Assembly: GCA_037178675.1 (NCBI GenBank)
Contig: JAYMGJ010000460.1
Coordinates: forward strand, 1 to 64,000
DNA: 64,000 nucleotides
Source of the DNA: Scleroderma bovista
Taxonomy: Eukaryota > Basidiomycota > Agaricomycetes > Boletales > Sclerodermataceae
Reading direction: 5' to 3'
Shown here: positions 1 to 49,300 of the stretch, piece after piece
How positions within the stretch are numbered: position 1 is the stretch's first letter
How the letters are laid out: every line of letters starts with the position of its first letter
Made by a program: the position numbers and the translations under genes
Notes under the pieces: generated by a model
The model's database searches: none
What the model was told of the DNA's origin: nothing
Seen by the model: the letters and a program-made list of their open reading frames with translations, nothing else

Positions 1-627
1 AAACACCCCGGTTCCCCTCCGTTGTTTTGGTTGTTGTGGTGAGAGAGATGAGTGCCATACTCTAGTAGTTGCATCAGCCGCCATCCACTGTTCCAGTTTC
101 TCCTGGACAATGACGACCTCATCTTTGCGAAGGGGGGTCTTGCCTTGCCCAGTGGCATCAGACCTCTCACCACTATCGCTCTCACTGTACTCAGATTCGG
201 ACATGGGTGAGGTGGAATCTTTGCAGCGAGTTCCCAATTCCGGCACACATACCGGCCTGTTGATTGAAGTTCACGTGGTCACTTGCTTCCCATGTCACAG
301 GGACCCTTGATGTTACTTTACCATGTTGGGCAGATGTAATACGGCGCCCGAGGAATATTTGGTAAGGTTCCCTGGGTATCTGCCAAGGTCTTACCATACA
401 TGGAAAGGTCATGTTGCTCAGGGTCCATTTTGACAATGCTTGTGTGCCAATCTCAAGATCTCAGGCCGTAATTGGTAAGGTTCCATTTGTGCCTGATCGT
501 GGTCCCGACCGAGTGGATTGACACCGGAGGATCCCAATCCGATGCAGTTGGTCGAGTTCAAGGTATTGCAATGAGGCATTTCAAGGTTAAAGTGGTTGTT
601 TTGTGAGCTTCACATCCAGAGACAGTC
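1..627. other. Left flank, no gene recognised
   Basis: I see no convincing gene. The short open frames on both strands overlap one another and show no domain. The stretch has none of the CCGCGG palindromes that begin at 1300. The left end of the KDZ element was not found: no terminal inverted repeat or target-site duplication is obvious, and the end may lie here or outside the window. Confidence 0.5.
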
Positions 628-3600
628 ATGGGGAAGTCCAAGGGTAGTAAAGTAGGCCCCTCTACACCTGTAACACAGGTGACATGGAAGACAGTAAGAT
701 CTGGTAGACAGTCCAAGGACAAGATTGTCAAGGCTCCACCCCGGAAAAAGGCATGCATTGAAAGAGCTGATGATCAGTCTCCCACTCGCGCTGGTTCATC
801 GGCATTGGAGCACACAAGTTTCCTTCCAGATGAGCCTGTAGAGGCATATTCTATGACAGATGATCCACCCCTGCGAGCATGTAAATTGCCAAGGAACCAG
901 GTCTGATGCACCTTCCACACTCTTAATATATATCTCATCGAATCATAGGACCACTATCTGCGAGACTGGCTGCCCTGGAAAGGCAAATATTTGTCAGTGC
1001 TCCTGGAAATGGAGGCACCCCCTGCATCAAGGATCTGTATGCGGTGTGGAAAGGATGGGGCAATTAGGTGCACTGAATGTGCTCATAGGCCAATCTTCTG
1101 CACAAACTGTTGCCTTGATACACACGAGGTCGGTCCCTTCCATTGGATTCAGAGGTGGACTGGAAGCTTCTTTGAGGACTTCTCTCTTCGCCTGGTGGGT
1201 CAGTTCTTTCACCATATCCACATGTTAATTAATAAAGCAGATTGGATTTGTAATGCACTTGGGCCACGGTGGAAAACCATGTCCTAGTGGAGGGTATAGC
1301 CGCGGGAATAATGCAAGTGATGATGAAGATGCTTGGGAAGATGTGGAGGACGATGGGAGCCCACCTCATCTAGCTAGACCACGGGACCGAAGTTTCCTAA
1401 CTTTGGTGCACACTAATGGGGTGCACTTTTGCGACATTCGGTACTGCAGCTGTGATGGTTCAGAGGATTCACATCTGCAACTTATGATGGCTGGCCTTTT
1501 CCCTGCGACAACAAAAAGTCCCAGGACTGCATTTACCTTCCAGGTGCTGGATGATTTTATCCGGGACAATGTGGAATGTGGCACCACTGCGATGAACTAC
1601 TATAGTAAATTGCAGAGACTAACATCCAATGCATTCCCACATGCGGTGCCAGTAAGTGAAGTAACCTTTTGTTTACCGCGGCACTGACACCGCGGATGAA
1701 ATAGAATAGGTACAGAGATCTGCTGAGGTTGTCAAGGGCATGGAGATTGTTGAAGCTTCTCAAGTGGCAAGGATTCCACGGAATCTCGGAGGAACCTGGG
1801 CCAGGGGAGCTGGTCCTCTTTTGCCCCGCATGTCCCCAACCTGGGGTAAATTTACCGCCCGCGGGAGGGGTCGATCTCACACAGTGAGTATAGGTTGTAA
1901 TTATTCTATTATTTGCAAATACAACTGATTTGTACAGCTGGAAATATTCGAGGATCATTGCTATGGATGGAAATTTCAAAGCCGAACATATGTTGCTCAA
2001 ACAAGCTCCAAACGAAGTCTGGTTGATGGATGGAAAAGGGTTCATGGTAACATCGCAGCCTTATAAGTCCTATTTAGCAGGAAGCACAAATCGAGTGGAG
2101 GTATGACCTCTTTTACTTGAGCAGCGGTAATTCCTCATGTTGCCATTAGAAATCGGACTGTAGCAATCATCGTGCGGTCAATCAGGCCAATACTAGTCGA
2201 AGTCAGTTGGCATCAACTGGAATTGGTGGATGTGCCTGTGCTAGACATGGGTGCTTTGTTCCGCATGCCATGGTTGATTTCCAAAAAGGAGAGCAGTATG
2301 TCCGCGGCTCCCATATAAAATCGCTTCATTGACCTGCGGATAGGCAAGTCAACATGGATTATTCCTTGGTGCATGCAGTGCATCACAGAATGGACCACCA
2401 ACAGCGGGTGGTAAACTTCTATGACATCAATTGTCAATACAGCAAAAACCTGTATCGGCGTATAGAAGAGAACCGGTTTTTGTCTCTCCCACCCAGACTG
2501 AAGATTCAACCCGGCATTGGTATATGGCATGTCCATGGACATCAATCGGAATGTTTCATGAGGTATTCCCCTAATTTCATTCCTGGAGTAGGCAATGTGG
2601 ACGGGGAAATAATGGAGACTCTCTGGTCGTCCTTAAATATTATTTCCCCCTCCACCTGGGGAATGGCTGCCCCTCATCAGCAGGAAATGCTGGACTTCCA
2701 AATGAATGACAGTAATTTCTTGAAGATGGTCCGCATGCGTGAGTGATCCTTAATTGCGGGTATTGCACCGGTATTCAAATATTCCAGCTTTGTCATTGAA
2801 GAGGAAACTAACTGCCGCCCAACGGAATCTTTCATCATCTCGTTATGCCTTTGCTACTTTGGATACAACTGTGCCTGAAGACATTCGTGATATTTGGAAG
2901 GCCCAAGAGTCGAAGGCACTTGTGGAGAGGCTATCCAATCCAACGGCCATGGATATATTTGAAGTTCGGTTAGAAAAGGGTATGTCCTCGTGTAATACAT
3001 ACAGAACAAGGCTGAAATCCCATGGCAAGCACCAAGTATTAAATCCATGGAGATTAGCCTCATAGAAATGCAAGCCGCGGCAGGGGCACTGCGAGGATCC
3101 GCCACATGGATGGCAAGGGCCTTGAAGGTGGAGGAGTCTCAGATAGTGCTCTTATTGGATGCACGCAGGATCCATTCAAGAACTACCGAAAGCCAAAGGC
3201 TTGACATTTCCTGCCGTCGCGACAGGCTACAGTCTCAAATCAATAGCTTGTTGCAGACCGCGGCACCATTTGTTGGGGCCGACTGGGACAGTGGACTTGA
3301 TAGCCGTGACAATGGTGACCCAGGGAGTGATGAAGATGGTATTTTCGTTACTGTATCCCCAGGGAATGCAGAACATGCCATACTGCCGCTGCCTTCCTAT
3401 ATGGGATTGCGGCGGTGCGGTGAATTGGAGCTGAATGGCCTGGTGGAGCAAGAACTTCAGCTCAGACAAGGCCAGGCCAATGATGCTCTGCATGAAATAC
3501 GGCTTGCTCTCGCAGACAAGGCAATTTTATTTCGCACAGAGGTCCGACATGGGAAAAACTATGCTGTGACAACCCGCGCTTGGAAAAAGGTATCGGACCT

Positions 3601-4114
3601 GGACACCTTGGTCAAAAGATATTCCGCGGTCTATAATCAGTGTCGAAAGCAAATGGTTGCTTTGGGAGCTGACCAAAGCATTCTTGACCGGTATCAAATA
3701 CTGAACAAGAAGGATCTCACAGTGAGTACCGTGGTGTCCGATCCCAATGCAAGGGGCCATCGCCATGACTCCTTGGCATGGTTCTGGACTATGGACATTC
3801 CAAAGGACACTGATAAAAATGATTGGATGTCAGAGTGTAAGCTTTGAAATCTTCGGTCATATATACCTACTTAACAATTTCAAATAGTTTACCGGGTTCA
3901 TTGGTTACGGGCGAAGGCAAGACAAGATCGATGGACTGAGGAGGTGGACCTCATAATTTCAGAACAGGGTTGGACACATAACTTCTTCAGAAAGCGGGCA
4001 AACTTCTGGGAGGAAAAAGCAGCGAAAGCAGCATTGGACTGTGACCGCGGCATGGCATGTTATTCAGCAAGGCAATATGACATGTACAACAAATTGAGTA
4101 AACTTTGCCAATAG
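628..4114 (+). CDS. KDZ (Kyakuja-Dileera-Zisupton) transposase with CxC2 cysteine cluster
   Basis: DNA transposase of the KDZ superfamily, expected to act in the nucleus on the ends of its own element. After a basic N-terminus (MGKSKGSKVG...) comes a CxC2-type cysteine cluster near 1030-1290, with CMRC, CTEC, CTNC, paired His residues and LGHGGKPCP. The RNase-H-fold core follows. Its first acidic residue is in MDGNFKAEHM (Asp at 1966), then CARHGCFVPHAMVDF, the second in FYDINCQY (Asp at 2423), the GIGIWHVHGHQ block, and the Glu in NVDGEIMETLW (2606). A helical C-terminal region ends in YNKLSKLCQ and TAG at 4112-4114. About nine introns of 30-60 nt must be removed. A TGA near 2333 lies in a GT...AG intron (about 2294-2342) with a branch-point-like TTGAC, so it is not a nonsense codon. 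No frameshift or stop was found in the joined exons, so the gene looks intact. CCGCGG palindromes occur in several exons and introns. The start at 628 is the first in-frame ATG. Family assignment is firm; exon borders are by eye. Confidence 0.88.
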
Positions 4115-4424
4115 ATGATTGTTTGTATTATTTTTACATCCTGGGAATTGGAGATGATGAGTCGTGGCCGCGGTGTGCAAAGCTATGGTTGGCAAACATG
4201 CTGTGCCAATATTGGTGAATAGCACTTACCCTACCATGTCACCTAAGCCCATTACCATCCAAGGCCATCCAAAATATCTCACAGGATACTTGAGTTACTA
4301 TACCTTTATGCAGCCGTGGTGTTAATGGCTTCCCCAATAAGTATTCTTTTGATTGTTCAGAAGCCACCCATTGAACACCACATGCATAATAATTCTACAT
4401 TTTATGTGTCATTATGGAATACAT
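4115..4424. other. Spacer between convergent genes
   Basis: A 310 bp gap between the stop of the KDZ gene and the stop of the minus-strand gene. No ORF of interest. It holds one CCGCGG (4168). It presumably carries both 3' ends. Confidence 0.5.
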
Positions 4425-5223
4425 TCAATGGTCTGTTCCCCTCCAAAGTTTGTCCGCGGACACCGCCCACTTCTCCTCCAGCTCATCGGGAGAATCTGTT
4501 AGGTATTCCACCATGCTCATGCGGTCGACGAGATGATGTAATCGTGCATTTTGACAAAAGATCTTCTCATCCACTTCGTTCAAGAGATGCTGGGTTTGTA
4601 ATTTGATATCCTCGATCCCCAACCCCGCGGTTTCATTGACTTTGAATAGGCTCGGAATGCCATAATCCCCTGGCTGCAATGAATGATGATTAGCAATGTG
4701 TTTTCATATCGTTGTGAACTCACCTGGTTCTGCGGAAAGAATTGCTGTGCCTCTCTGACTAGCTGGCTGAGTGTTTGCCGCGGTACCGCATTGCCAGGGA
4801 TACCCCATACCCACCATTCTCCCGGTGTGGCCCGTGGACTGTGGACTCTGGCTTCCGCGGGATACGCCTTGAAGACCTCGATGGTTTTGATCTGGCACAT
4901 CAACGTTGGTGCATCTGGGTCCCCAATAGACACCCATTCCATGACTTGAGCCGCAACCGCGGGAACCTGCATCACCAGCCCATGCTTGTTGCACACCGCA
5001 AGTAATCGCTCCAAAATTGCCTGCAGGATTGGTCAGCCCATTTGATGTGATTGGAATTCAAGCATCGCACCACTTCCGCCAATACATGGGCATGCCAATC
5101 GATCTTCTCCCACAGCGAATCTTCCCCTCTCTGCTGCAAAGCATGTACGAACCGACGGAATCTGATACCCGCATATTGTAAAGTAGCCGAGAGTGTGCGT
5201 GCGTGAATACTGGAGGAATCCAT
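4425..5223 (-). CDS. Unidentified gene between transposase and TET/JBP gene
   Basis: I do not recognise the family. Three exons join cleanly. Exon 1 begins MDSSSIHARTLSATLQYAG at 5223. Exon 2, about 5018-4728, encodes AILERLLAVCNKHGLVMQV... through GEWWVWGIPGNAVPRQ to FFPQNQ. Exon 3, about 4677-4425, begins PGDYGIPSLFKVNE and ends LWRGTDH with TGA. Introns are about 45-50 nt with GT...AG ends. The protein would be about 230 residues, mostly helical, with no metal-binding or catalytic motif. It is convergent with the transposase, and its exons and introns carry CCGCGG at 4454, 4625, 4778, 4855 and 4957, so it shares the base signature of the whole element and is probably a cargo or accessory gene of it. 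Confidence 0.6.
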
Positions 5224-6094
5224 GGGTGTAGAATGGGGAGTAATGATTGATATTTATAATTGATCCACCAACATTCCCACGTACGGCCTACCATTGTTTA
5301 TCAAACAATGACCCCCCACCCAGTTGGCATTGATCAATATCACCCATTGCTCCCGCGGATATATAATTAGTTCATCCCTTTTCTCCTATCTATATGTGAT
5401 TAGTATGTCTGGATTTCAATTAGATATCTAATCTCCCCGCGATGACATATAACCGCGGTCGCAATATAAGTAATCTGCTGTGAATGCCAAATGTAAAGAC
5501 AGAATTGGTCAGGGAATTGACACCTCATTATTGCCTTTTTCTAATATGAATTGGCGATCTATTTTGTGAATCTCTCGCCGTGCCTAATGGCTGCGGCAAG
5601 TTGACCCATCGATAACAAATATCCCGCGAGATAACAATCATTCCAATGTTGGTATTATCCTCTCTTCTTTGTCAGATAATTTCTCTCCTCCTGCATTTGA
5701 TATCAGCAATCAATCATATGTACTGATACATCACCATTGTCCGATCGGTCACCGCGGCTGCGAGCAACCTCTCCCGTGGACTTTATACCAACCTGTGACA
5801 TTTCAAATTGTATCAATTGCTCACCTTCTTATGTATTATTTACAGGTTTGGCCAATCAATGCTTACTGATGTGGGTTCCACCCGCGGCTGATCTTCTAAC
5901 ATGATTTGTATCTACATGTTGGCACCGCTCCAAAACAGTAAATTCCATTTCCTGTCTTTATTTTTCCTATATAATTTATTTATAGGTTTGAATTTCGTTG
6001 ATTATCCAGCCATCACCCCTCAATCTACCCGCGGTCGCCACATAAATATTCTACAATATCCCGGCTTTGCTTGTGTCCTATTTAGCTCCCCTTC
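5224..6094. other. Intergenic region between divergent accessory genes
   Basis: AT-richer spacer between the minus-strand unidentified gene and the plus-strand TET/JBP gene, so probably a shared promoter region. It carries CCGCGG at 5353, 5453, 5752, 5882 and 6029, in otherwise CpG-poor sequence. No coding region is convincing. A short upstream exon of the TET/JBP gene could be hidden here. Confidence 0.5.
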
Positions 6095-7354
6095 ATGGCT
6101 GCTCCTGTGTCTTACCCCACTGATTATCATCTTTCCTACCAAGTTGCTGGTTATATGCGACGCCGCTTTTGTTCCTTGGCATTCCTGGACTCTGGCACCG
6201 CGGCACCGCCTGTTCCCCTTGACCTCCCAGTTGACCTTTCTGTTGGGATGCACCAGATGGTTGCAACTTTAGTGACTGCATATAATCATCGCAGTATGCC
6301 TTGTTCATGTCTCTTCCTCCAGTGCTCATCTGTGTCCAGTTGACTCTGGTGTTGACCTCATCCGGCTCGCTGAATCATTGGCATCCATGGAGCCTGGGAC
6401 CACCGCGGATAGGGAGCAAGCCTTCCTTACCAAGTTCCCTGCTACTATTTCAGGTCTTATCGATGAACCAGCGATGATTTTGGGGGAGGGGGGAATTGTA
6501 GCTTTGTGGTATCTTCCTGGTGCCCTGGCACGCCCAACACAGGTATGATCCGATACCTCTTTTGTTCATCATTTTCTATAATACCTGTAGACAAATATTC
6601 TGCAGGCATTAAGTCCACTCCATACACAACTATCCGCCAGTATAACTGGCCGGACATGGCGCTCTGACCCGCGGTACTTTCATCCGGCACAGGCCTTTGT
6701 GACTGGTTGTTTGGAGCTTTCTCCTGCAAGGCATCAAATGGGTCATTATGTGAGTGCTTACCATTCCTGCCATACATTCGTTAATGAAAATATATTCAGC
6801 ATGAAAATGCTTCCATGTCCAGGGACCTTAATACCGCCGCGGGATTCCAGTGGTTACAAGCTATGGTTCAGCCGACCTCAATTATATCGGGTGCATTGTC
6901 AATCATGCATCCACAGCTGTATGACGATGGAATGCGAGGAATTAAACTATTGGGAGATTGGTCTTCCACAAACGACCCCGGCATGAACAGGGCCTTATCC
7001 CTCTGGCCCACCCCATTTACCAATATTTCCCTTATTGCAAACCGGTCCACCCCCCTCCACCGTGATCCCCAATCCCGTGCCAGTTGGTACGATGTCATAG
7101 TAAATGTGGGTGAATACACTGACTGTGTCATGGCCATCCCTACCCTCGGCATCGAGCTGGTGTACAAGCCAGGTACCGCGGTCGCATTCTCCGGGAGGCT
7201 TCTTAGGCACGGGGTAAATGCTGTAGAAGGAAACCGGCACTGTTTGACCTACTATATGAGGGATAACATTCACCATTGGGTAAGGGTTCCAAGGTGTGCG
7301 GATTGGATGAGGATTGATAGTGTGGAGAGGTTGTTGAGGCCTACCATACTGTAA
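6095..7354 (+). CDS. TET/JBP-family 2-oxoglutarate/Fe(II) DNA dioxygenase
   Basis: Predicted nuclear dioxygenase that oxidises 5-methylcytosine (to 5hmC and further products in characterised TET/JBP members), using Fe(II) and 2-oxoglutarate. The last exon (about 6801-7354) holds the catalytic double-stranded beta-helix: LHRDPQSRASWYDVIVNVG gives the HxD iron ligands (His 7058, Asp 7064). KPGTAVAFSGRLLRHGV gives the distal His (7208). An Arg suited to binding the 2OG carboxylate follows in GNRHCLTYYMRDN. Upstream exons join in frame: about 6350-6540 (LAESLASMEPG... DEPAMILGEGGIVALWYLP) and 6605-6750 (ALSPLHTQLSAS... HQMGHY), each bounded by GT...AG introns. The start at 6095 (MAAPVSYPTDYHLSYQ) is tentative. 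CCGCGG lies at 6198, 6403, 6669, 6837 and 7176. Association of TET/JBP genes with KDZ transposons in mushrooms is established (Iyer and colleagues, 2014). No stop or frameshift was seen, so it looks intact. Confidence 0.85.
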
Positions 7355-8150
7355 ATACTGGAAAGGAATTTGTAGAGCTGGGATGTATATTACTATTGAT
7401 ATCTCTTCATAGGAGAATTAGCAAATGCACATGGAGTGGAATTTTAGAAATGATATTGTGTGCTACAGGTGTCTGGCAACATTGCCGCGGCTACTCAGGG
7501 TTGCTTATTGGAGAAACAACACTTATTTCACCACGGGTTATCCATATGATACATGGCTGTATGTATACCTGGTACATCAGTGGTGTCCCGCGGGTATGTC
7601 TAGGGCAATCATTGTTGTCTTGATTCCGCCGCGGATTCATTTTGTTGGGACTACTTTGTGCATTTATTCTACTACCGCGGCTTCTTTCAGGTGCGGCATG
7701 TTGCTGCGGCCATTTTGACATACCTTACACCCAGATATCAGTCTCCGTGAGCCCAACTATTACTGTCGGCCAGTCATATATGGGCCCATCCACGTTCGAT
7801 AGAAACACCATATGTCAGCCTAGCCATGTCAATGCGGGTTAGAAATTATGTGCCCTCCGTTGGGTCCGAGGCCGATGTTATTTTGGCCAACTGGTATTCC
7901 AGGTCACAACAAATCTATAGCCCACCCTTGACACACCGGATGATGCAGGTATCCACTGGCTCACCATATCTCATTGGACCCATCACACCTCAGCCCACCC
8001 GTACTACTCGGCATCACGAAATATGGGCTCACCTATACCTTAGTGACAGTTTTACCTTGGCTGGCCCATATGCTACGGCGCCGGGTAATAATAGCCTGTC
8101 CATCTCAAATGAGAACATCATAGTGTAAGCTCACTCGTGGTATACGACCT
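7355..8150. other. Spacer downstream of TET/JBP gene
   Basis: No gene recognised. Open frames are short and overlapping. CCGCGG occurs at 7485, 7588, 7629 and 7675. After about 7850 the sequence turns into the CCCAC/ATGGGCTCA-rich repeats that continue to 8820. Confidence 0.5.
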
Positions 8151-8820
8151 TAATAGATATGGGCTACCCTTGGTTCAGGGGACATTGCTATTTTGGCTGA
8201 TGTACATGATGAGGGACAGTATATTCAAAGCCCACCCGTGCTACATGGGATAATGGCATCATATATGGGCTAGCCCGTATCACATTGCAATCATCCATTC
8301 TCAGCCCACTCATGCTACTCGTGATGATAGAATATGGGCTCATTGGTATCTTAGGGACTATGCTATTTCAGCTCACTCATATTACATGGGCCCATATAAT
8401 AACAGCCTGCCCATATGACATGGGATGGTATAATAGTGGCCCATCCATACCCCATGAGGAGGTCAATGTGTCAGCCCACTCGTGCTACTCGGGATGATGC
8501 AATATGGGCTCACCTATACCTTAGGTGAAGGTTATTTCGGCTCACTCATGTTACACAGGACCATATAATAGCAGCCTGCCCATGTGACATGGGATGGTAT
8601 AATAGTGGCCCATCCATATCCCATGAGGAGATCAATATGTCAGCCCACTTGTGCTACTCGGGATGATGCAATATGGGCTCACCTATACCTTAGGTGAAGG
8701 TTATTTCGGCTCACTCATGTTACATGGGACCATATAATAGCAGCCTGCCCATGTGACATGGGATGGTATAATAGTGGCCCATCCATATCCCATGTCAGCC
8801 CAATATGGGCTCACCTGTAC
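8150..8820. repeat. Direct repeats of about 170 bp
   Basis: At least two near-identical units of about 170 bp start near 8474 and 8643, each beginning with GCCCAC(T/C)(C/T)GTGCTACTCGG and containing GGGATGGTATAATAGTGGCC. More degenerate units lie on either side. Related words recur at 10.0-10.3, 33.3-33.5 and 59.6-59.8 kb. No coding potential. Confidence 0.7.
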
Positions 8821-8859
8821 CTTAGGGGACAGACCCAGGGTGGCCCTATCCTCTGGTAC

Positions 8860-9980
8860 TCAGCCCGCGGTGGGTACTCACTTGGGTAGTCAACCTGTGC
8901 TGTGTAATCAACACCAGTGGCTAGCTAACCTGCAGTGGGCAGCTAACCTGCAGTGGGTAGTCAACCCACCATGGGTGGTAGTGCAACCGCGGTTGGTAGT
9001 CAATCCGTGGTGGGGAATCACTCTACTGGGTAGTTAGCTTTGGGTGCGTAGCCAAGGGCAGTGGCTAGGTAATGGGTGGTTGGCAGCTAACCCGCGGTAT
9101 GCATTGAACCCGCGGTATAACCTGCAGTGGGTCGTCAAGCCTGGGTAGGTACTGGTTAGACCTGGGACCTTGGTTGGTGGCCAACCCGCGGTGGGTCAGC
9201 AGTAGCTAGCTAACCCGTGGTGGGTAGCCAACCCGCGGTATGTATTGAACCCGCGGTGTCACCTGCATGGGATAATCAACCCACAATGGGCGGTCACCCC
9301 TGGGTAGGTACGTGGTTGGTAGTACGACCGCGGTTGGTAGTCAACCCGCGGTGGAGAGTCATCAGTGGGTAGCTAACCCATATTGGTCAGCTAACCTGCG
9401 GCATGTATTGAACCCGCGGTGTAACCTGCAGTAGGTGGTCAACCAGGGGTAGGTACGTGGTTAAAGCTGGGACCACGGTTTGTGGCCAACCCATGGTGGG
9501 TACTCACTCCACTGGTTAGTAAACCTGAACTATGTAGTCAACAAGGCCAGCTAACCCATGGTGGGCAGCTAACCCGCAGTAAGTATTGAACCCGCGGTTT
9601 TTGCAGTGGGAGTCGACCCACAATGGGCAGTCACCCCTGGGTTGGTAGTGCGACCGCGGTGTAGTCAACCCCCGCTGTGTAGTCAACAGTAGTGGGTGGA
9701 TAACCGGTGTTGGGCAGCTAACCCGCGGTGTGACCTGCAGTGGATGGTCAACCCTGGGTAGGTACATGGTTGGAAATAGTTGCTGGCCAACCTAACCCGC
9801 GCGAGTAGTTAACCCTGGTTAGTAGTGGGCCCGTAGTGGGACCGTGGTTTGTAGTAATCCCGCGGCGTGTAGTAATCCTGCGGTGTGTGATGCCTGTATA
9901 TGTATAGTCAGCTGTAGTAGTCCATCAATGGTAAGTAGTCAACCCGCGGTAGTCAACCCCAGTAGTTCACCCGCGGTAAT
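8860..9980. repeat. Degenerate minisatellite built on AACCCGCGGTGGGTAGTC
   Basis: Irregular tandem units of about 20-45 bp on the theme AACCCGCGGTGGGTAGTC, with variants such as AGCTAACC and TATTGAACCCGCGGT. Sixteen units keep CCGCGG. Many others show CCGTGG, CTGCGG, CCGCAG, CCACGG or CCATGG, which are the C-to-T or G-to-A products of the two CpGs. That suggests the array is or was methylated. It may be a subterminal array of transposase-binding sites. Confidence 0.8.
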
Positions 9981-10345
9981 GGAGCCAGTTCTGCTGGTAG
10001 GTTGATTAGATTCGTTCCTACTGTATGCAGTAGTATCTATTTTTGCTAGCCCACCCCATACCTTTGCATTCCAGTAAATCTGGGCTCATCCATTAATGTG
10101 CACCCAGTAAGATTGTGGCCCACCAAGATGTCATGATGACAATTCCTATATCCCTACCACAACCCCTCCTTAACTACCACCATAGCCCACCCATATCACA
10201 TGGTAAAAAAATCATAGTGTGTAAGCCCACCCGTATTACTCGGTGATACTCCATCCATGGGCTCCTGTCCGCTGGCCCGTGACACTCGGCCGATTTTCAC
10301 CTTCGGGTGGCCGTGTAAGACGGGACAAGGTAGGTACATTATGTG
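9981..10345 (+). repeat. Shared tail repeat, copy 1
   Basis: CCCACC-rich sequence ending in GGGACAAGGTAGGTACATTATGTG near 10322-10345. The same ordered words (CGGTGATACT, GGGCTCC..GTC.GCTGGCCC, GGGACAAGGTAGGT.CATTATGTG) occur at 33361-33572 and 59560-59815. The sequence after the final ATTATGTG differs at each place, so this may be the end of a transposon family or a preferred insertion site. Confidence 0.55.
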
Positions 10346-11480
10346 GATCAGAAGTACTCATACAAGCCAATACTACCCATACCTTCATTGCCTGTACTTA
10401 TTTTTCAACCACCTTAATTCATTCAATATTCATCTTAATCAATTTATATTCAATTTTGTACAGTACGAAAGAATAAATATTGTACACTAATGGGGGCAGA
10501 ACAGAGACTAAATATATTATATACATTTGAGGTCGTCGTCGTCGTCATCGTCAATGGTCGCGACGTCAACGCAGGTGGTGGGGGTAGTGGCGGCGGCCAC
10601 GTCGGGGTCGTCGTCGTCATCGCTGGTGTTGCGTCAACAATACAGGTGGGGGGGTCGTCGTCGTCGTCATCGGTGCCTGGTGGTGGCCGTGTTATCGACG
10701 CGGGTGGTAGGGGGTGGTGGTCATGTCGCCGTTGTCCAGGTAGGGTGGTCGTTGACATTGGGGGTAGTGGTGGCGTCATCATCGTCGACATTGGGGGTCG
10801 TCGTCGTCGTGTCGTCAATGTTGGTGGTGGGTGGTTGCGTCGACGACAATGTTGGTGGTGATGGTGGTCGCGTCATCGATGACGTGGGTGGTGATGGCGG
10901 TCGCGTCGTCGTCAACGTTGGAGGTGGTGGTCACGGCATCGACGACGTTGGGGGTGGTCACATCGTCGTTGTCCACGTTGGTGGTGGTGGTGGTGGTGGT
11001 GGTGGTGGTGGTGGTGATGGTAGTCGCGTCGTCGTCGACGTTGGGTGTGGTGGTGGCCGCATCGACGTCGACGTGGGTGGTGGGTGATCGCGTCGTCGTC
11101 GACGTGGGTGGTGATGGTGGTCACGTCGTCGTCGTCGTCATTGGGGGTGGTGGTGGTCGCGTCATTGACGACGTTGGGGGTGGAGGTCGCTTCGTCGTCG
11201 TCATTGGGGGTGGTCGTCGTGTCGTCGTTGACGTTGGTGGTGGTGGCTGCATCGTCATCAACGCGGGTGGTGGTGGCCGCGTCGTCGTTGACGCTGGTGA
11301 TGGTGGTGGTCAACGCATGGTGTGGTGGTGGTGGTGGTGGTGGTGGTGGTGGTAGAAGACAGAGAGTGAGGAGGCTTAGAGACATTTTTGAAGTGTGTGT
11401 GTGTGCGTGTGTTTGTGTACATGATTATATCAGCATATTCAACGACCAATATTTTCTCACCCTTGGCACCAGCTTAAATG
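10346..11480 (+). mobile_element. Non-coding repeat element with GTC/GTG trinucleotide core, copy 1
   Basis: A core of about 830 bp (10526-11355) consists almost only of GTC, GTG, GGT and GTT triplets, including pure GGT runs near 10978-11018 and 11322-11352. It is flanked by ordinary sequence: left CAGAAGTACTCATACAAGCC ... TTTTGTACAGTACGAAAG, right TTTTTGAAGTGTGTGTGTG ... GATTATATCAGCATAT. Both flanks recur in inverted orientation at 52560-53262 around a similar core. The unit is therefore a repeat family and not just a microsatellite. Long Val/Gly/Ser or Thr/His reading frames across the core are artefacts of the repeat. Confidence 0.65.
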
Positions 11481-32276: not shown

Positions 32277-32565
32277 ATGTTGCCACTGTTGTGTCCTGCC
32301 AACAGTGTGTTCTGCCAACAGTGTGTTCTGCCGACAGTGGTGTTGTGCCGACAGCCGTGTTCTGCTGACAATTGTGTTCTGCCGACAGTTGTGTCCTGCC
32401 GACAATTTTGTTCTGCCAACAGATGTTCTGCCAACAATTGTGTTCTGCCAACAATTGTGTTCTGCCAACAGCCATGTTCTGCCAACAGCCGTGTTCTGCC
32501 AACAGTTGTGTTCTGCTGCTGGTGTGTTCTGCCACCAATGTGTTCTGCCAATGCCATGTAGTGCC
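32277..32565. repeat. Minisatellite of TTCTGCCAACAGTTGTG units
   Basis: About 16 units of 16-18 bp on the theme TGTTCTGCC(A/G)ACA(G/A)(T/C). Slightly shifted lengths break any single frame. Frames rich in Cys or in His/Thr/Gln on either strand are repeat artefacts. Confidence 0.85.
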
Positions 32566-33360: not shown

Positions 33361-33572
33361 TGTACTAGTGTGTCAGCCCACCAATATTACTTGGTGACAA
33401 CCTCTCCATGAGCCACCAATATGGCACGGTGAAACACCTTACCATTAGCCCACTCATATGACATGGGGATGCACCATGGCTGGGCCCTATCTCAGCTGGC
33501 CATGTAGCATGGCCGATTGCCAGCTTCGTCTGTCCGTGTTGTATGGGACAATGCAGGTGCATTATGTGGCTA
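33361..33572 (+). repeat. Shared tail repeat, copy 2
   Basis: CAGCCCACC...TTGGTGACAACCTCTCCATG... then GGGACAATGCAGGTGCATTATGTGG, matching the ordered words of 9981-10345 and 59560-59815. It is followed at once by a CCGCGG-rich array. Confidence 0.5.
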
Positions 33573-34260
33573 CCGCGGGTTAGGTGTCACTACAACCCCA
33601 TGCACCTACGGCTGTCTTACAAAGTCACACAGGGCAGAACTGGGGTAAGACCGCGGTATGTGCCGCAGGTTAGGTATCACCACCACAGTCAGGTGCAAAA
33701 ATGTAGGTATATAGGTGAGATAGCCCAAATTAGTACAACACAGGGGACATTGGCATGCGTGGGGTATCTTGGTAATAGCTACCTGGAGCTATCGCAGATA
33801 AGATGAAACAGCCGCGGGTGAGGTGTACCATGGGTAGGGTGTCACTATGGCTGGTGAGGTGCAACAACCGCAGGATAGTTGTAACTACAGCTGATTAGGT
33901 GTCACTACCGCGGATAAGGTGTAGCTATCAGGGGAGGGGTGTAACCACTGCGGGTTGGGTGTCATTACCGCAGGTAGGGTGTCACTCCCGCAGATAAGGT
34001 GTGACTATCATGGATATGGTGTAACCACCGCGGGTGAGTTTTAAAAACTGCGGGTAAGGGGTGATTATAACGGATTAGATGTGAGTATCACAGGTAAGGT
34101 GAGCAGGTGATGTGCAATAATGGGTAGGGTGGGCACTGAATCACGTTAGGTGTCCCTCCCGTGGACCTGAGTGTCACTACCGCGGGTCTATGTATCACTA
34201 CCGCGGGTAAGATGTCACTACCACAGGATAAATTTAACTACCACAGTTTTTGTGTGGTTG
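33573..34260. repeat. Second CCGCGG-bearing minisatellite
   Basis: Units of about 25-30 bp on the theme GGTGTCACTACCGCGGGTAA. Exact CCGCGG lies at 33573, 33651, 33812, 33908, 34028, 34180 and 34201. Variants CTGCGG, CCGCAG and CCACAG are common, as in the 8.86-9.98 kb array. Confidence 0.8.
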
Positions 34261-34986
34261 AAACAAACATTTGTAAAAAGGAAATACTGCACCATATAAA
34301 CAGCTTGGTGAAATTTAGCATATAGGTTTATGCCGTATAAAGGAAGCATCAATTACAATCTAACCTTAGCATGTGTGGCTGGCTCCACATGTGGCAAATA
34401 TTACAGTGGTATTAACTGGCAGTGTTAACCGCGGCAGAGCTTTCACCACGCCAGAGTTTTCACTGTGGCAGAGTTATGTGAAGCAGGTGTTAAAATGAAA
34501 TTTCCAATATGATTTGGTTCACAATTGTCACAATGTTATGCTGTATACCAATGCAACCGCGGTACCTTCTGGAGAGAGGTAGAATGATACCGCAAGACAA
34601 ATGAAAAGGATTAGGCCGTGAAAAATACCATTGATTAGGAATCATTTACTAGGAACTAGGAAACACCTGGTGATGAGTGGGTTAGGCTCATGTTGGCATA
34701 CCTTGGCTGTGAAATGATTACCAGCATGTGCACATAGCCGCGGGTACAATACTATTTCTTAGGTGAAACAAATAAATTGCATGTAAGTATGGGACAAAAT
34801 GTATTTCATACATATTAATTAACAAAAGGAAACATAGTTCATTTGCACAAAGAAGTGTTGCAAAAAAAAAATATACAAACAAAGATGGATGCTGGAATGG
34901 TCAAACAAAAGTATCTAACATAACCAGTGTACATAAAAGATAGTCTGTGAAAAGGAAAATGGTATGGAAATGAAGATAAAGGTACT
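34261..34986. other. Spacer with scattered CCGCGG
   Basis: AT-rich, no gene recognised. CCGCGG at 34429, 34557 and 34738. It looks like intergenic DNA of an element related to the one at 1-10 kb. Confidence 0.45.
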
Positions 34987-35697
34987 TTAGGTGTCCATTG
35001 CATTTGCTTCCCCAGTGCCCGCACTTCCGTCATCTCCAACCGCGGGTGCCAGAGCCTTGTCATTGGGGACATTGGCGGGACTTACCACGATGGTGGGGAG
35101 AGGAATGGCTTCCGGATCCAAAGCCATTGCATCATTGGTGATGCTGTTTGGAGGGCATGAGGAGAGGGGATCATCACCAGGTGTCATGGGGCACTGCAGG
35201 GGATGTGAGTATTGAACTGCAGGTAAATTAAATGGACTTACCAGGATGGCGGGGACAGAAGCTGTGGGTTGATCCACAGCCATGGTATCATCAGTGTTGA
35301 TGATGGCAGGAGGGGGGCAGGCGGGAGGAACATGGTCATCGCCAGCAGAGCTGGGAGACCGAGGCGAATGGGCATCTTGTACCGCGGTTGGAGCCCACAG
35401 TGTTTGCAGGATGTTGGGGGTGACGGATTTGGCAAGCATCTCAATGGTGGTGGATACATCACGAGATGCATGTGGATGCGTGCACAGTTCTGTGCTTGCA
35501 ACCGCGGGGATTGTTGGTGTTGAAGCAATACCTATATACGTAGAGGAACTGCTACTCCAACTCACCTGTTGGGTGGAGTGCACAACCTGAGATGGTAGCG
35601 GTAGCTGGTTAAGAGCTGTTATATTATATAAGCGGTGGACACTGTTTATATACAACAAATAGTGTGACACGTGACTGTGACGTGTGACATGTGACAT
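34987..35697 (-). CDS. Unidentified Ser/Pro-rich protein in the second CCGCGG cluster
   Basis: Open frame of 236 codons ending GTGEANAMDT. Three internal repeats of the type ...DDTMAVDQPTASVPAILVSP and ...DAMALDPEAIPLPTIVVSP, each followed by a GDD(H/P) and PP-rich segment, indicate duplication. The first 40-50 residues run into possible LTR sequence, so the true start may be nearer 35550. CCGCGG at 35040, 35382 and 35502 lies inside the coding frame. Function unknown; probably cargo of a CCGCGG-type element. Confidence 0.45.
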   Translation of the reverse strand: MSHVTRHSHVSHYLLYINSVHRLYNITALNQLPLPSQVVHSTQQVSWSSSSSTYIGIASTPTIPAVASTELCTHPHASRDVSTTIEMLAKSVTPNILQTLWAPTAVQDAHSPRSPSSAGDDHVPPACPPPAIINTDDTMAVDQPTASVPAILVSPFNLPAVQYSHPLQCPMTPGDDPLSSCPPNSITNDAMALDPEAIPLPTIVVSPANVPNDKALAPAVGDDGSAGTGEANAMDT

Positions 35698-42877: not shown

Positions 42878-43149
42878 AGGTAGTTCAGTCACAAACCCTC
42901 GCAAAAGTGGGTCATCGGACATGTACATTTGCCTGTAAAGGTGGGACTAGCCGACGCCGGCCGATGCTCGCAGAACTGGGCCAGGCCGATGTTTTCTATT
43001 ATTGCAAATCTAGTACAGGCCTGAGGGACATTAATCACTGCAAAACTGGGATGGGCTGATGTTTGATAAAAATTGCAGAACTGGGACTGGTGGGAGCATT
43101 GTAAAACTAGGTCAGGCCTGTTGAACAAAAAAATTGACAAGTGTTGCAA

Positions 43150-43730
43150 AGCTGGGACTGGCCGATGTTGTAGATACATTGCAAAACTGGGTCAGGCCTG
43201 TTGAGAAAAAAGTTGTCAATTACTGCAAAACTGGGTCAGGCTGACATGGCAGAATGGGGTCAGGCCTTTTGAGGAAAAAATTGTCAAGCATTGCAAAACT
43301 GGGTCAGGCTGACATTGTATATACATTGCAGAACTGGATCAGGCCTGTTGAGAAAAAAAGTTGTCAAGCATTGCAAAACTGGGTCAGGCTGACATTGCAG
43401 AACTGGGTCAGGCCTGTTGAGGAAAAAGTTGTCAAGCATTGCAAAACTGGGCCAGGCTGACATTGCAGAACTGGGTCAGGCCTGTTGAGGAAAAAGTTGT
43501 CAAGCATTGCAAAACTGGGCCAGGCTGACATTGCAGAACTGGGTCAGGCCTGTTGAGGAAATAGTTGTCAAGCATTGCAAAACTGGGTCAGGCTGACATT
43601 GCAGAACTGGGTCAGGCCTGTTGAGAAACAAAGTTGTCAAGTACTGCAAAACTGGGTCAGGCCTGTTGAGCAAAAAAGTTGTCAACCATTGCAAAACTGG
43701 GTCAGACCCAAAATTGATACACATTGCAGA
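43150..43730. repeat. Tandem repeat of about 66 bp in left arm (mirror 49435-50015)
   Basis: Units contain GCAAAACTGGGTCAGGC, TGACATTGCAGAACTGGG and CCTGTTGAGGAAAAAGTTGTC. About eight or nine units, with the reverse complement in the right arm. Confidence 0.85.
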
Positions 43731-43739
43731 ATTAAATTA

Positions 43740-45790
43740 CTGTGCTGACTACCAAAAATGTGGACCATTGATTAGGCAATATTGTGTACTGTTGGTGTGA
43801 TAGTGTTGACTACCAAAGATGTGCAGCTTGGATTATCTAATGTTGTGTTCTATTGGTGTGGTAGTGCTGATTACCAAAAATGCGGACTATTGATTAGCCA
43901 ATGTTGTGTAGTGTTGTTGTTGTAGTGTACTACCAAAAATGTGTAGTATTGATTACCTAATGTTGGGTACTCTTGGTGTGGTAGTGCTGATTACCAAAAA
44001 TGCGGACTATTGATTGGCCAATGTTGTGTAGTGTTGTTGTTGTAGTGTACTACCAAAAATGTGTAGTATTGATTACCTAATGTTGGGTACTCTTGGTGTG
44101 GTAGTGCTGATTACCAAAAATGCGGACTATTGATCAACCAATATTGTGTGGTGTTGTTGTAGTGTACTACCAAAAAAAGTGTAGTACTGATTACCTAATG
44201 TTGTGTAGTATTGATGTGATAGTGTTCATTACCAAAAATGCGGACTGTTGATTAGCCAATATTGTGTAGTGTTGTTGTTGTAGTGTACTACCAAAGATGT
44301 GTAGTATTGATTATCTAATGTTTTGTACTGTTGGTGTGGTAGTGTTGATTACCAAAAATGTGTAGCTTGGATTACCTAATGTTGTGTGCTGTTGGTGTGG
44401 TAGTGCTGATTACCAAAAATGCGAACCATTAGCCAATGTTGTGCAGTGTTGTTGTTGTGCAGTGTTGTTGTTGTAGTGTTGATTACCAAAAATGTGTAGC
44501 TTGGATTACCTAATGTTGTGTACTGTTGGTGTGGTAGTGCTGATTACCAAAAATGCGAACCATTAGCCAATGTTGTGCAGTGTTGTTGTTGTAGTGTTGA
44601 TTACCAAAAATGTGTAGCTTGGATTACCTAATGTTGTGTACTGTTGGTGTGGTAGTGCTGATTACCAAAAATGCGAACCATTAGCCAATATTGTGTAGTG
44701 TTGTTGTTGTAGTGTACTACCAGAAATGTGTAGTATTAATTACCTAATGTTGTGTACTATTGATGTGGTAGTGTTGATTACCAAAAATGCGAACTATTGA
44801 TCAACCAATGTTGTGTAGTGTCATTGTTGTAGTGTTGATTACCAAAAATGTGTAGCTTGGATTACCTAATGTTGTGTACTGTTGGTGTGGTAGTGTTGAT
44901 TACCAAAAATGCGGACTATTGATTAGTCAATATTGTGTAGTGTTGATTACCAAAAATGTGTAGTTTGGATTACCTAATGTTGTGTACTGTTGGTGTGGTA
45001 GTACTGATTATCAAAAATGCGGACTATTGATTAGTTGTTGTAGTGTACTAACAAAAATGTGTAGTATTGATTATCTAATGTTGTGTACTGTTGGTGTAGT
45101 AGTACTGATCATCAAAAATGCGGACTATTGATTAGTTGTTGTAGTGTACTACCAAAAATGTGTAGTTTGGATGACCTAATGTTGTGTACTGTTGGTGTGG
45201 TAGTGTTGATTATCAAAAGTGCGGACTATTGGTTAGTCAATATTGTGTAGTGTTAATTACCAAAAATGTGTAGTTTGGATTACCTAATGTTGTGTATTGT
45301 TGGTGTGGTAGTGTTGATTATCAAAAATGCGGACTATTGATTAGCCAATATTGTGTAGTGTTGTTGTTGTAGTGTACTACCAAAAATGTGTAGTATTGAT
45401 TACCTAATGTTGGGTACTCTTGGTGTGGTAGTGCTGATTACCAAAAATGCGGACTATTGATCAACCAATATTGTGTGGTGTTGTTGTAGTGTACTACCAA
45501 AAATGTGTAGTACTGATTACCTAATGTTGTGTAGTGTTGATGTGATAGTGTTCATTACCAAAAATGCGGACTGTTGATTAGCCATTATTGTGTAGTATTG
45601 TTGTAGTGCACTACCCAAAATCTGTAGTGTTAATTACCCAATGTTGTGTAGTGTTGATTACCAAAAGTGCGGACTTCTGATTAGCCATTATTGTTTAGTG
45701 TTGATTACCAAAAATGCGGACTATTGATTAGGAAATGTAGTGTAGTGTTTGTGTATTGGAGTTGATTACCAACATTGTGTAGTTTTCATT
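43740..45790. repeat. Tandem repeat of about 110-120 bp in left arm (mirror 47630-49430)
   Basis: Units combine TGTGGTAGTG(C/T)TGATTACCAAAAATGCGGACTATTGATTAGCCAAT with TGTTGTAGTGTACTACCAAAAATGTGTAGTATTGATTACCTAATGTTGTG (each word read in pieces). About 17 units. GGACTATTGATT recurs at 120, 120 and about 109 bp. No coding. Confidence 0.85.
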
Positions 45791-45897
45791 AACTAAATTC
45801 AGTAGTGTCAACACTTGATTACATAAGCTCTCCAAGCGCCACTACTCCCAAAACATTACCATATTTGGTCAATAGTTGACTTCAAATATTCCCACCT

Positions 45898-46338
45898 TTG
45901 TTCTGGTACTTTTCTTCCCCTTCTGTGCTTCATCCCTGGTCCAAATGTACTGTAAAAATGATTCTGTATCCCATATTACCCTATAGGATCACCATTGGAC
46001 CCTCATCTAAATGTGCAAGGGGCTCTGTATCCCCAGAGAGTAGTGCAGGCTTAAAAACACCAAAAATGTTCGCATTTTTGATACATTCAACATATCAACT
46101 TAAAGAATGCATCCCCATACAGGGGATATATGTACCTACAACATATTTACAGTCCACAGCATGGGATCCATGTCCTGGTGCGATGTTTTATGTTTTTCCT
46201 TTGCAAACATATCACCATGGCAGGCAATTACTAGGAGGTATGGTGGCTACTGGATGGTCTCCAGTGGTATTACTATGCTATACCAAAGTCCCAATACAAT
46301 CTAGTGAGCAGCTGACCACTCCAAGAGGAGCAGCATAG
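45898..46338 (+). other. 146-codon frame in unique part of palindrome arm
   Basis: Open frame (MFWYFSSPSVLHPWSKCTVK...) duplicated exactly at 47081-47521 on the minus strand. No domain, no clear start context. Perfect conservation reflects the identity of the arms, so it is not evidence of coding. Kept only as a description of the unique segment. Confidence 0.2.
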
Positions 46339-49300
46339 AAAACAGCACTTTCATAACAATAGGTGCTGTATGATCCTCCAGGTCAGGTATGCACAATATC
46401 ACTATCTCAAAAGCTGGGGGATACCATACAGTAGTGGATACAATTTACTCAAGTCAATACCGCTTGATGTGGGGGAGGGAAGGGCACAATAACATACAGA
46501 AGGCGTGGGAAAATACCCCACAAAATGCGGAGATATGCAAAAACATTACATATCACACAACACATAACATCTACTGACCTAGAAATGCTACCAACAGCCT
46601 ACTAATATCACATAATGCTTATACTCAGCTGTTCCTGACATGCTTAGAGGCACAAATCATTTGAACCAAGAACATGTTGTTACTGTCCATATACACTGCA
46701 GCTTTGCACCTGCAGTACTGATATGATGTAGCACATTTCCGCATTTTTCAAACCTTGAATGATTTGTGCCTCTAAGCATGTCAGGAACAGCTGAGTATAA
46801 GCATTATGTGATATTAGTAGGCTGTTGGTAGCATTTCTAGGTCAGTAGATGTTATGTGTTGTGTGATATGTAATGTTTTTGCATATCTCCGCATTTTGTG
46901 GGGTATTTTCCCACGCCTTCTGTATGTTATTGTGCCCTTCCCTCCCCCACATCAAGCGGTATTGACTTGAGTAAATTGTATCCACTACTGTATGGTATCC
47001 CCCAGCTTTTGAGATAGTGATATTGTGCATACCTGACCTGGAGGATCATACAGCACCTATTGTTATGAAAGTGCTGTTTTCTATGCTGCTCCTCTTGGAG
47101 TGGTCAGCTGCTCACTAGATTGTATTGGGACTTTGGTATAGCATAGTAATACCACTGGAGACCATCCAGTAGCCACCATACCTCCTAGTAATTGCCTGCC
47201 ATGGTGATATGTTTGCAAAGGAAAAACATAAAACATCGCACCAGGACATGGATCCCATGCTGTGGACTGTAAATATGTTGTAGGTACATATATCCCCTGT
47301 ATGGGGATGCATTCTTTAAGTTGATATGTTGAATGTATCAAAAATGCGAACATTTTTGGTGTTTTTAAGCCTGCACTACTCTCTGGGGATACAGAGCCCC
47401 TTGCACATTTAGATGAGGGTCCAATGGTGATCCTATAGGGTAATATGGGATACAGAATCATTTTTACAGTACATTTGGACCAGGGATGAAGCACAGAAGG
47501 GGAAGAAAAGTACCAGAACAAAGGTGGGAATATTTGAAGTCAACTATTGACCAAATATGGTAATGTTTTGGGAGTAGTGGCGCTTGGAGAGCTTATGTAA
47601 TCAAGTGTTGACACTACTGAATTTAGTTAATGAAAACTACACAATGTTGGTAATCAACTCCAATACACAAACACTACACTACATTTCCTAATCAATAGTC
47701 CGCATTTTTGGTAATCAACACTAAACAATAATGGCTAATCAGAAGTCCGCACTTTTGGTAATCAACACTACACAACATTGGGTAATTAACACTACAGATT
47801 TTGGGTAGTGCACTACAACAATACTACACAATAATGGCTAATCAACAGTCCGCATTTTTGGTAATGAACACTATCACATCAACACTACACAACATTAGGT
47901 AATCAGTACTACACATTTTTGGTAGTACACTACAACAACACCACACAATATTGGTTGATCAATAGTCCGCATTTTTGGTAATCAGCACTACCACACCAAG
48001 AGTACCCAACATTAGGTAATCAATACTACACACTTTTGGTAGTACACTACAACAACAACACTACACAATATTGGCTAATCAATAGTCCGCATTTTTGATA
48101 ATCAACACTACCACACCAACAATACACAACATTAGGTAATCCAAACTACACATTTTTGGTAATTAACACTACACAATATTGACTAACCAATAGTCCGCAC
48201 TTTTGATAATCAACACTACCACACCAACAGTACACAACATTAGGTCATCCAAACTACACATTTTTGGTAGTACACTACAACAACTAATCAATAGTCCGCA
48301 TTTTTGATGATCAGTACTACTACACCAACAGTACACAACATTAGATAATCAATACTACACATTTTTGTTAGTACACTACAACAACTAATCAATAGTCCGC
48401 ATTTTTGATAATCAGTACTACCACACCAACAGTACACAACATTAGGTAATCCAAACTACACATTTTTGGTAATCAACACTACACAATATTGACTAATCAA
48501 TAGTCCGCATTTTTGGTAATCAACACTACCACACCAACAGTACACAACATTAGGTAATCCAAGCTACACATTTTTGGTAATCAACACTACAACAATGACA
48601 CTACACAACATTGGTTGATCAATAGTTCGCATTTTTGGTAATCAACACTACCACATCAATAGTACACAACATTAGGTAATTAATACTACACATTTCTGGT
48701 AGTACACTACAACAACAACACTACACAATATTGGCTAATGGTTCGCATTTTTGGTAATCAGCACTACCACACCAACAGTACACAACATTAGGTAATCCAA
48801 GCTACACATTTTTGGTAATCAACACTACAACAACAACACTGCACAACATTGGCTAATCAATACTACAGATTTTGGGTAGTGCACTACAACAACACTACAC
48901 AATATTGGCTAATCAACAGTCCGCATTTTTGGTAATGAACACTATCACATCAATACTACACAACATTAGGTAATCAGTACTACACTTTTTTTGGTAGTAC
49001 ACTACAACAACACCACACAATATTGGTTGATCAATAGTCCGCATTTTTGGTAATCAGCACTACCACACCAAGAGTACCCAACATTAGGTAATCAATACTA
49101 CACATTTTTGGTAGTACACTACAACAACAACACTACACAACATTGGCCAATCAATAGTCCGCATTTTTGGTAATCAGCACTACCACACCAAGAGTACCCA
49201 ACATTAGGTAATCAATACTACACATTTTTGGTAGTACACTACAACAACAACACTACACAACATTGGCTAATCAATAGTCCGCATTTTTGGTAATCAGCAC

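Follow-up and report, generated by a model that had tools for sequence, protein, structure and literature searches.

The DNA analysed here (the window) is a 64,000-nucleotide stretch of a Scleroderma bovista contig. It holds part of a KDZ transposon that also encodes a TET/JBP dioxygenase, and in this element the palindrome CCGCGG, with its two CpGs, recurs far beyond expectation. The question is what keeps so many copies of one short motif in such an element. It touches on a wider puzzle: if TET acts indiscriminately, why should so many fungal transposon families have a TET gene of their own? Sequence-specific self-recognition is a concrete answer that could be tested at little cost, and it is suggested by a palindrome that is under selection in a TET-carrying element and is apparently swapped in sister lineages. 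On the comparisons below we lean towards reading CCGCGG as the recognition sequence of an element-encoded protein, probably selected throughout the element for finding its own family's DNA.

The element and its genes

By domain content the element is supported as a TET-positive KDZ (Kyakuja-type) DNA transposon, an assignment in which Kyakuja and Zisupton are not set apart by phylogeny. The KDZ+TET identity given in the first-pass annotation is borne out by Pfam matches on single exons (CxC2, 3e-27; KDZ, 2e-29; Tet_JBP, see Table 1), which include the CxC cysteine cluster of Kyakuja-type transposases, and by alignment of the TET/JBP protein to CcTet (7vpn; E 1e-22), which places it near that AG-type enzyme with HxD kept and an equivalent of Asp337 present. 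The available part of Kojima 2025 (PMC12730594) describes the roles of these residues and, in TET-positive Kyakuja/Zisupton elements of Agaricomycetes, the same pairing of a CxC2/KDZ transposase with an AG-type, CcTet-like TET. The third gene, ORF2, has no significant Pfam match, and no DNA-binding domain can be assigned from AlphaFold modelling of its exon 2 with four relatives (mean pLDDT 46); fragments from three further KDZ+TET families contain relatives (63%, 28% and 35% identity). Ratios of dN/dS between families A and B (KDZ 0.20, ORF2 0.22, TET 0.28) indicate that all three genes are under purifying selection. Scans of viral contigs with the TET exon and two KDZ exons yielded one locus, L047, which was taken as a chance match; its long ORFs, phage-like by eye, do not resemble a KDZ element.

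The family A element has near-identical copies and a sister family, B, in the same genome (G000), to which the DNA-level comparison is confined. Its left half is missing from the window because the contig begins inside the element, which extends leftward to about 19 kb in sister copies; a left segment of other copies lies ~9-11.5 kb farther upstream. The earlier span of 1300..9976 stands as the first and last CCGCGG sites, not as the limits of the element, since the block shared by the compared copies is longer (Table 1), its right end being placed by those copies that reach that far. This right end reads ...CATTATGTG, and it alone could be compared with the 5'-CA..TG-3' termini and 7-bp target duplication of Kyakuja-type elements. 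A second CCGCGG cluster, absent from the earlier annotation, holds 13 sites between 33573 and 35502 (0 of 1000 shuffles reach 13). It lies in a segment 97-98% identical to segments that precede the matched block by 10-11.5 kb in family B copies C178, C202 and C488; its first part consists of ~20-bp repeats of the type TGTCACTACCGCGGGTAAG (TRF period 20-21).

Table 1. Features of the window, with the evidence for each.
Feature	Position	Strand	Basis
Part of KDZ+TET element (family A)	68..~10345	+	block common to 12 compared copies
KDZ transposase gene, ~10 exons; zinc-binding N-terminus, CxC2 and KDZ domains	629..4114	+	Pfam
45 CCGCGG sites	1300..9976	.	exact count
ORF2, 232 aa, 3 exons (5223-5071, 5020-4724, 4673-4425), five CCGCGG inside	4425..5223	-	gene model
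TET/JBP dioxygenase gene, ~4 exons	6095..7354	+	Pfam Tet_JBP 6e-18
Right subterminal repeats, ~18 bp around CCGCGG, type GGTAGTCAACCCGCGGT	8860..9980	.	repeat analysis
Left-end segment of sister family B, 13 CCGCGG	33569..35517	+	97-98% to upstream segments in B copies

Density and placement of CCGCGG

The reported saturation of the element with CCGCGG withstands the dinucleotide-preserving control that had been proposed for it: a first-order Markov model predicts 0.96 sites where 45 are present, and 400 dinucleotide shuffles of 1300-9976 average 0.96 and never exceed 4. Excluding the repeat-rich right part leaves 29 sites against 0.61 expected (1300-7740; 0 of 400 shuffles). The whole genome carries 7400 sites in 51.8 Mb, or 0.14 per kb, and 1300-9976 carries 5.2 per kb (36x). 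In 1201-10050 the 18 hexamers that differ from CCGCGG by one letter have counts of 0-7, and among them only the products of CpG decay are mildly raised (CCGTGG 7 vs 2.2, CTGCGG 6 vs 1.6, CCACGG 5 vs 1.9). The element as a whole is CpG-poor and its right end repeat-rich. Regularity of spacing is weak in both families (CV 0.74; a fraction of 0.045 of simulations is as regular).

Sixteen of the 29 sites before 7740 are exonic (KDZ 6, TET 5, ORF2 5) and 13 lie in introns or spacers. With 16 of 45 sites in exons the motif does not sit mainly in noncoding tandem repeats, as it would in a VANC/VANDAL-type system, and with 29 of 45 before 7740 it is not confined to subterminal regions, as it would be in a CACTA/Spm-like one. 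It is nevertheless repeated near both ends, the left end being known from the family B segment: repeats of 18-21 bp with CCGCGG at their centre occur there and at the right end. Elsewhere CCGCGG is rare, its density being a property of its own family, and 47 of the 50 close CCGCGG pairs among those listed (242 in all) fall in or near elements of this group. This last count weighs against the idea that CCGCGG is read by a host factor, such as a transcription factor or a protein exempting DNA from methylation, which the element exploits. An exact palindrome would suit a dimeric host protein as well, but related elements sharing the nucleus have CCGG in its place in the pieces known, and we regard this explanation as improbable.

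Selection on the sites and decay of their CpGs

Comparison of the two families indicates that selection keeps CCGCGG as DNA, exons included. Between the A and B masters (9 A and 6 B copies; three of 18, C20, C86b and C26, were left out, without plus-strand projection) 26 of 30 comparable sites are retained, two of the 32 A-master sites (4168 and 5591) having no B sequence opposite them. One-CpG hexamers are retained in 447 of 986 cases (45%) and CpG-free hexamers in 3589 of 6290; the small set of two-CpG hexamers (29 of 41) shows no clear difference from the sites. At fourfold-degenerate third positions in CpG, A and B are identical at 28 of 30 positions within sites and at 34 of 61 outside (p 1.5e-4), and strictly noncoding C/G are identical at 70 of 73 versus 524 of 700 (p 4e-6). 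All fourfold positions (30/32 vs 565/684, p 0.07) and all third codon positions (31/33 vs 1299/1502, p 0.16) give a trend only. Synonymous-codon shuffles yield on average 1.65 and at most 7 coding sites against the 16 real ones (0 of 3000), and the coding sites occupy all three codon phases.

The resident copies are not protected at CCGCGG, as judged from the loss of CpGs: 49 of 548 have decayed inside the sites and 182 of 1972 elsewhere in family A, 96 of 376 and 298 of 1204 in family B. The CpGs of CCGCGG thus decay as fast as others, so there is no lasting demethylation at the sites.

Both sets of counts bear on the notion that the sites have no function and arose by uneven CpG loss, tandem-repeat spread, or protein or codon bias. 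A CpG-poor element with a repeat-rich end invites it. It is contradicted by the A/B retention, the synonymous shuffles and the noncoding conservation, by an excess far above any CpG-complete composition, and by the decay of CCGCGG CpGs like any others; we give it next to no credence. Its single variants fail separately: a relic of CpG sparing is ruled out by the equal decay inside and outside the sites, a protein or codon origin by the shuffles and the three phases, and a tandem-repeat origin by the 29 of 45 sites outside the right repeat part.

The equal decay also speaks for a simpler account, in which CCGCGG would be the site of the KDZ transposase, dense subterminally and extending from there along the element, with CpGs that make binding methylation-sensitive, while TET acts without sequence aim. 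The motif-centred repeats of the right end and the left-end segment fit this equally well. There is a precedent in CACTA/Spm, where the available text of PMC4219821 links methylation to loss of transposase binding at subterminal repeats, and AG-type TET has been suggested to act without sequence aim (Kojima 2025, PMC12730594, in the part available). Against it stand the 29 sites (16 exonic) outside the right subterminal part, conserved as DNA, while transposition has no obvious need of a motif along the whole body. We hold this account to be rather unlikely. As to the proposal in the first-pass annotation that the element marks itself through CCGCGG and so escapes methylation, self-recognition is favoured by the DNA-level selection, the near-restriction of clusters to elements and the family specificity seen in short pieces, and methylation escape is weakened by the equal decay and by subterminal repeats that suit plain transposase binding.

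Related families, known systems and a possible reader

The other KDZ+TET families are known only from pieces of 1.2-1.5 kb. Three of these (L041, L042, L045) contain no CCGCGG and are enriched in CCGG (each 0 of 1000 shuffles); the transposase exons of L042 carry 15 coding CCGG, where synonymous shuffles give 5.5 and none of 500 reaches the real count. A short piece of a fourth family carries CCGCGG, and the L046 piece has neither motif clearly. Related KDZ-TET elements without CCGCGG were to have refuted the earlier idea; such pieces exist literally, but their richness in CCGG refines the idea and does not overturn it. Motif choice therefore looks family-specific, as in VANC/VANDAL of Arabidopsis, with CCGG in three families and CCGCGG in A, B and the fourth, as far as short pieces tell. 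A CCGG repeat of the C188 family points the same way: 85 of 100 among the places listed have a listed TET match no more than 4 kb away, as does 2.3% of the genome, and 9 of 100 among those listed (C126, C170, C344) have neither a TET nor a KDZ match of the lists close by, the KDZ list comprising 150 of 166 matches.

As far as the available text of Hosaka 2017 (PMC5735166) goes, VANC motifs (YAGTATTAY, AGTTGTMC) are CpG-free and mainly noncoding; as here, each is concentrated in a single transposon family and scarce outside it, with different motifs in related families, and the arrays are partly tandem repeats. Unlike them, CCGCGG is a CpG palindrome found also in exons, in an element that carries a TET enzyme and in whose right part the Pfam matches of ten scanned exon pieces include no VANC-family protein. 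The TnpA protein of Spm causes demethylation. CACTA/Spm shares the repeated element-specific motif near the ends, yet in that system, as described in the accessible part of PMC4219821, the motif keeps to the subterminal regions and the element lacks a TET gene, whereas here CCGCGG runs through all three genes. The open-licence PMC literature yielded no account of CCGCGG in basidiomycete transposons and methylation, or of subterminal motifs in basidiomycete KDZ transposons, nor the term 'CpG palindrome' among the matches listed.

Under the reading that we prefer, a protein of the element would bind the CCGCGG palindrome and thereby recognise DNA of its own family, for transposition, for aiming TET, or for both. 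More weakly, this reading of CCGCGG may be coupled to methylation state, with TET acting at the sites during activation, because each site has a pair of CpGs and TET is also present in those families in which the motif was seen (the TET-less control, L043 only, is weak); the motif might then be the family's own address, serving transposition and anti-silencing jointly. A bolder version, which we put forward tentatively, is that KDZ+TET transposons bear a family-specific epigenetic address code: one CpG palindrome per lineage (CCGCGG here, CCGG elsewhere) would saturate the element's DNA, exons included, and be read by the family's own protein in a methylation- or oxidation-dependent manner. 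TET would set or remove the mark, and many families could thus run their circuits for anti-silencing and transposition separately in one nucleus. If true, VANC-like addressing would have arisen a second time, independently, in fungi and on the basis of CpG, and could give compact modules for targeted 5mC oxidation.

The reader could be the KDZ transposase, whose N-terminus has the zinc-binding and CxC2 regions; ORF2 and the product of a gene in the left half are the other candidates. For the CxC2 region, a Pisolithus relative (P0069), modelled at a mean pLDDT of 77, has no PDB match at E <= 0.001 in Foldseek; the N-terminal part bears a weak resemblance to B-box zinc modules.

The family A element and its genes

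The first 10.3 kb of the window contain part of a KDZ transposon (family A), whose copies share a block that stops near position 10345. It carries a gene for a CxC2+KDZ transposase (Pfam domain matches), the minus-strand ORF2 (232 aa, no significant match in Pfam), and a gene for a TET/JBP protein whose best relative among solved structures is CcTet. The TET/JBP protein retains the HxD motif, with Asp aligned to Asp337 and Ser where CcTet has Gly331; the functional roles of these residues follow PMC12730594. The closest named protein relatives come from Scleroderma citrinum, both for the TET exon (74%) and for the CxC2 exon (95% over 62% of the exon), which points to a probable boletoid source close to Scleroderma. 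The assembly to which the window belongs (51.8 Mb, 850 contigs) has at least 150 Tet_JBP and at least 166 KDZ matches, and a listed TET match lies within 8 kb of 84 of the 150 listed KDZ matches, but of only one of the 31 best-scoring. Searching DNA with 1300-9976 returned near-identical family A copies as well as copies of a sister family (B) that match at about 81-91%. The dN/dS values between A and B (KDZ 0.20, ORF2 0.22, TET 0.28) indicate that all three genes matter to the element.

The window is without the left half of the family A element, since left segments in other copies sit far upstream. A second CCGCGG cluster, 33569-35517, matches at 97-98% segments that precede the matched block by 10-11.5 kb in family B copies (contigs C178, C202 and C488); the first two of these copies extend over about 19 kb between the left segment and the right end. 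In family A copies (C145, C227, C305), a segment 8921-8922 bases before that point matches the right half of the cluster at 67%. Sequence like a KDZ right end (33447-33569; 73% over 126 columns to 10224-10345) stops exactly at the start of this family B left-end segment, leaving no gap between a right end and a left end.

Density, conservation and decay of CCGCGG

The CCGCGG saturation of 1300-9976 reported by the first-pass annotation is real and stronger than stated: 45 sites, the final one of the block at 9971, against a mean of 0.96 in dinucleotide shuffles (0/400 reach 45). As the genome total is only 7400, this is about 36 times the genome density. Apart from these sites CpG is scarce in 1201-10050 (310 observed, 514 expected; 90 of the 310 within CCGCGG). 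Pairs of CCGCGG spaced 60-90 bp number 242 in the genome (backward control 46); among 50 listed, 20 lie within known parts of A or B, another 27 no more than 12 kb from such a part, and three elsewhere. Our sequence comparisons show an exact CpG palindrome that selection maintains throughout the element part read and that is nearly confined to these elements.

Nine A and six B copies were projected onto window 68-8300, and a CpG-aware master was made per family. Each master holds 32 CCGCGG: 26 are common, four A sites are altered in B, two A sites have no B sequence, and six are B-only. From A to B, CCGCGG is retained at 26/30 sites, against 447/986 one-CpG and 3589/6290 CpG-free hexamers; two-CpG hexamers (29/41) are a small control, not clearly different from CCGCGG. 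Where a fourfold-degenerate third position falls in a CpG, A and B agree in 28/30 cases within CCGCGG and in 34/61 outside (p 1.5e-4), with only a trend for all fourfold sites (30/32 vs 565/684, p 0.07) and all third codon positions (31/33 vs 1299/1502, p 0.16). In strictly noncoding DNA, C/G is retained at 70/73 positions within CCGCGG and 524/700 outside (p 4e-6), and CpG bases at 45/48 and 48/73 (p 2e-4). The 16 coding CCGCGG were never reached in 3000 synonymous-codon permutations (mean 1.65, maximum 7). CCGCGG is kept up as a DNA word, independent of the encoded proteins.

Change of CpG to TpG or CpA is a mark of methylation. It makes up the majority of copy-versus-master differences (family A, 231 decayed CpGs alongside 288 differing positions; family B, 394 alongside 573), and falls equally within and outside CCGCGG: 49/548 and 182/1972 in A (Fisher p 0.87), 96/376 and 298/1204 in B (p 0.78). 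Resident copies look methylated at CCGCGG as at other CpGs, and the suggested protection from methylation is not visible in them. This equality disfavours lasting demethylation at CCGCGG and favours selection on the still-transposing lineage. The earlier proposal of self-marking and escape from silencing is supported in part.

CCGG and CCGCGG in related families

Other families were compared through six pieces of 1.2-1.5 kb (L041-L046). Within these, CCGCGG recurred in only part of the related KDZ-TET elements. It is enriched in L044 (C288 family; 3 vs 0.03 expected, 0/1000 shuffles), and both CCGCGG and CGCG are absent from L041, L042 and L045, where CCGG is in excess: 20 vs 4.5 expected in L042 (C700 family), 19 vs 3.3 in L041 (C188 family, largely tandem repeats) and 6 vs 1.5 in L045 (C539 family), each with 0/1000 shuffles reaching the count. 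L046 (C306 family) has one CCGCGG (reached by 17/1000 shuffles) and no CCGG. L043 shows neither motif enrichment nor CpG depletion; it adjoins a KDZ match without a TET match within 23 kb and is a weak control, as none of the KDZ query exons matches it. The L042 transposase exons hold 15 CCGG against 5.5 in synonymous shuffles (0/500), the homologous family A exons 2 CCGG and 4 CCGCGG; CCGG in family A is below expectation (18 vs 27.8). In the C188 family CCGG is part of a 17-bp repeat, which is present at 141 places (backward control 0). Of the 100 places listed, 85 have a listed TET match at most 4 kb away and 89 a TET or KDZ match, against 2.3% of the genome that is as close to a listed TET match. 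ORF2, with no known domain or name in any library searched, is a third gene between KDZ and TET matches in three further families (Table). Apparently, CCGCGG has been exchanged for CCGG in lineages sharing KDZ, ORF2 and TET.

Possible readers of the motif and other window features

An element-encoded protein probably reads CCGCGG, and may do so for transposition, TET targeting, or both. Transposase binding is suggested by the CCGCGG subterminal repeats at the two ends; the conserved sites inside exons speak for a mark on the whole element body. Structure prediction yielded no lead to the reader protein. A single host factor is a less likely reader, as it would hardly account for two words in one nucleus.

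According to PMC5735166, Arabidopsis VANC recognizes YAGTATTAY in noncoding tandem repeats, and VANC6 uses other motifs. A family-specific short motif would work here in similar manner, but CCGCGG contains CpG and also fills exons. Kojima 2025 (PMC12730594) describes TET+ Kyakuja elements and speculates on non-target-specific oxidation; the words CpG, CCGCGG and subterminal are absent from its main text. PMC8889193 treats oxidised methylcytosine in Laccaria and Coprinopsis, and a term search of it found neither CCGG nor KDZ. We found no report of CCGCGG in such elements in the open-licence literature.

Relatives of ORF2 and tandem repeats of the window
Feature	Location	Remarks
ORF2 relative	C288:4800-6000 (L044)	63% identity to A
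ORF2 relative	C539:77800-79000 (L045)	28% identity
ORF2 relative	C306:29600-30800 (L046)	35% identity, one stop
CpG-rich GGT/GTCGTC-type repeat block, units ~30 bp	10439-11360	just beyond the element's right end
Tandem array, 16 copies of 17-bp unit GTTGTGTTCTGCCAACA	32288-32551	
Tandem array, nine copies of 145-bp unit	56117-57431	
About 54 copies of 19-bp unit TGTAGTGAGTCCGCGCAGG	58437-59451	CGCG 13 vs 2 expected

The repeats at 58437-59451 do not resemble family A's right repeats. A very large inverted repeat (42881-50284) has arms of at least 2.5 kb and 92-96% identity, which are AT-rich tandem arrays with units of about 61, 68 and 120 bp and almost meet at about 46.7 kb; it resembles a mobile element whose giant arms are repetitive.
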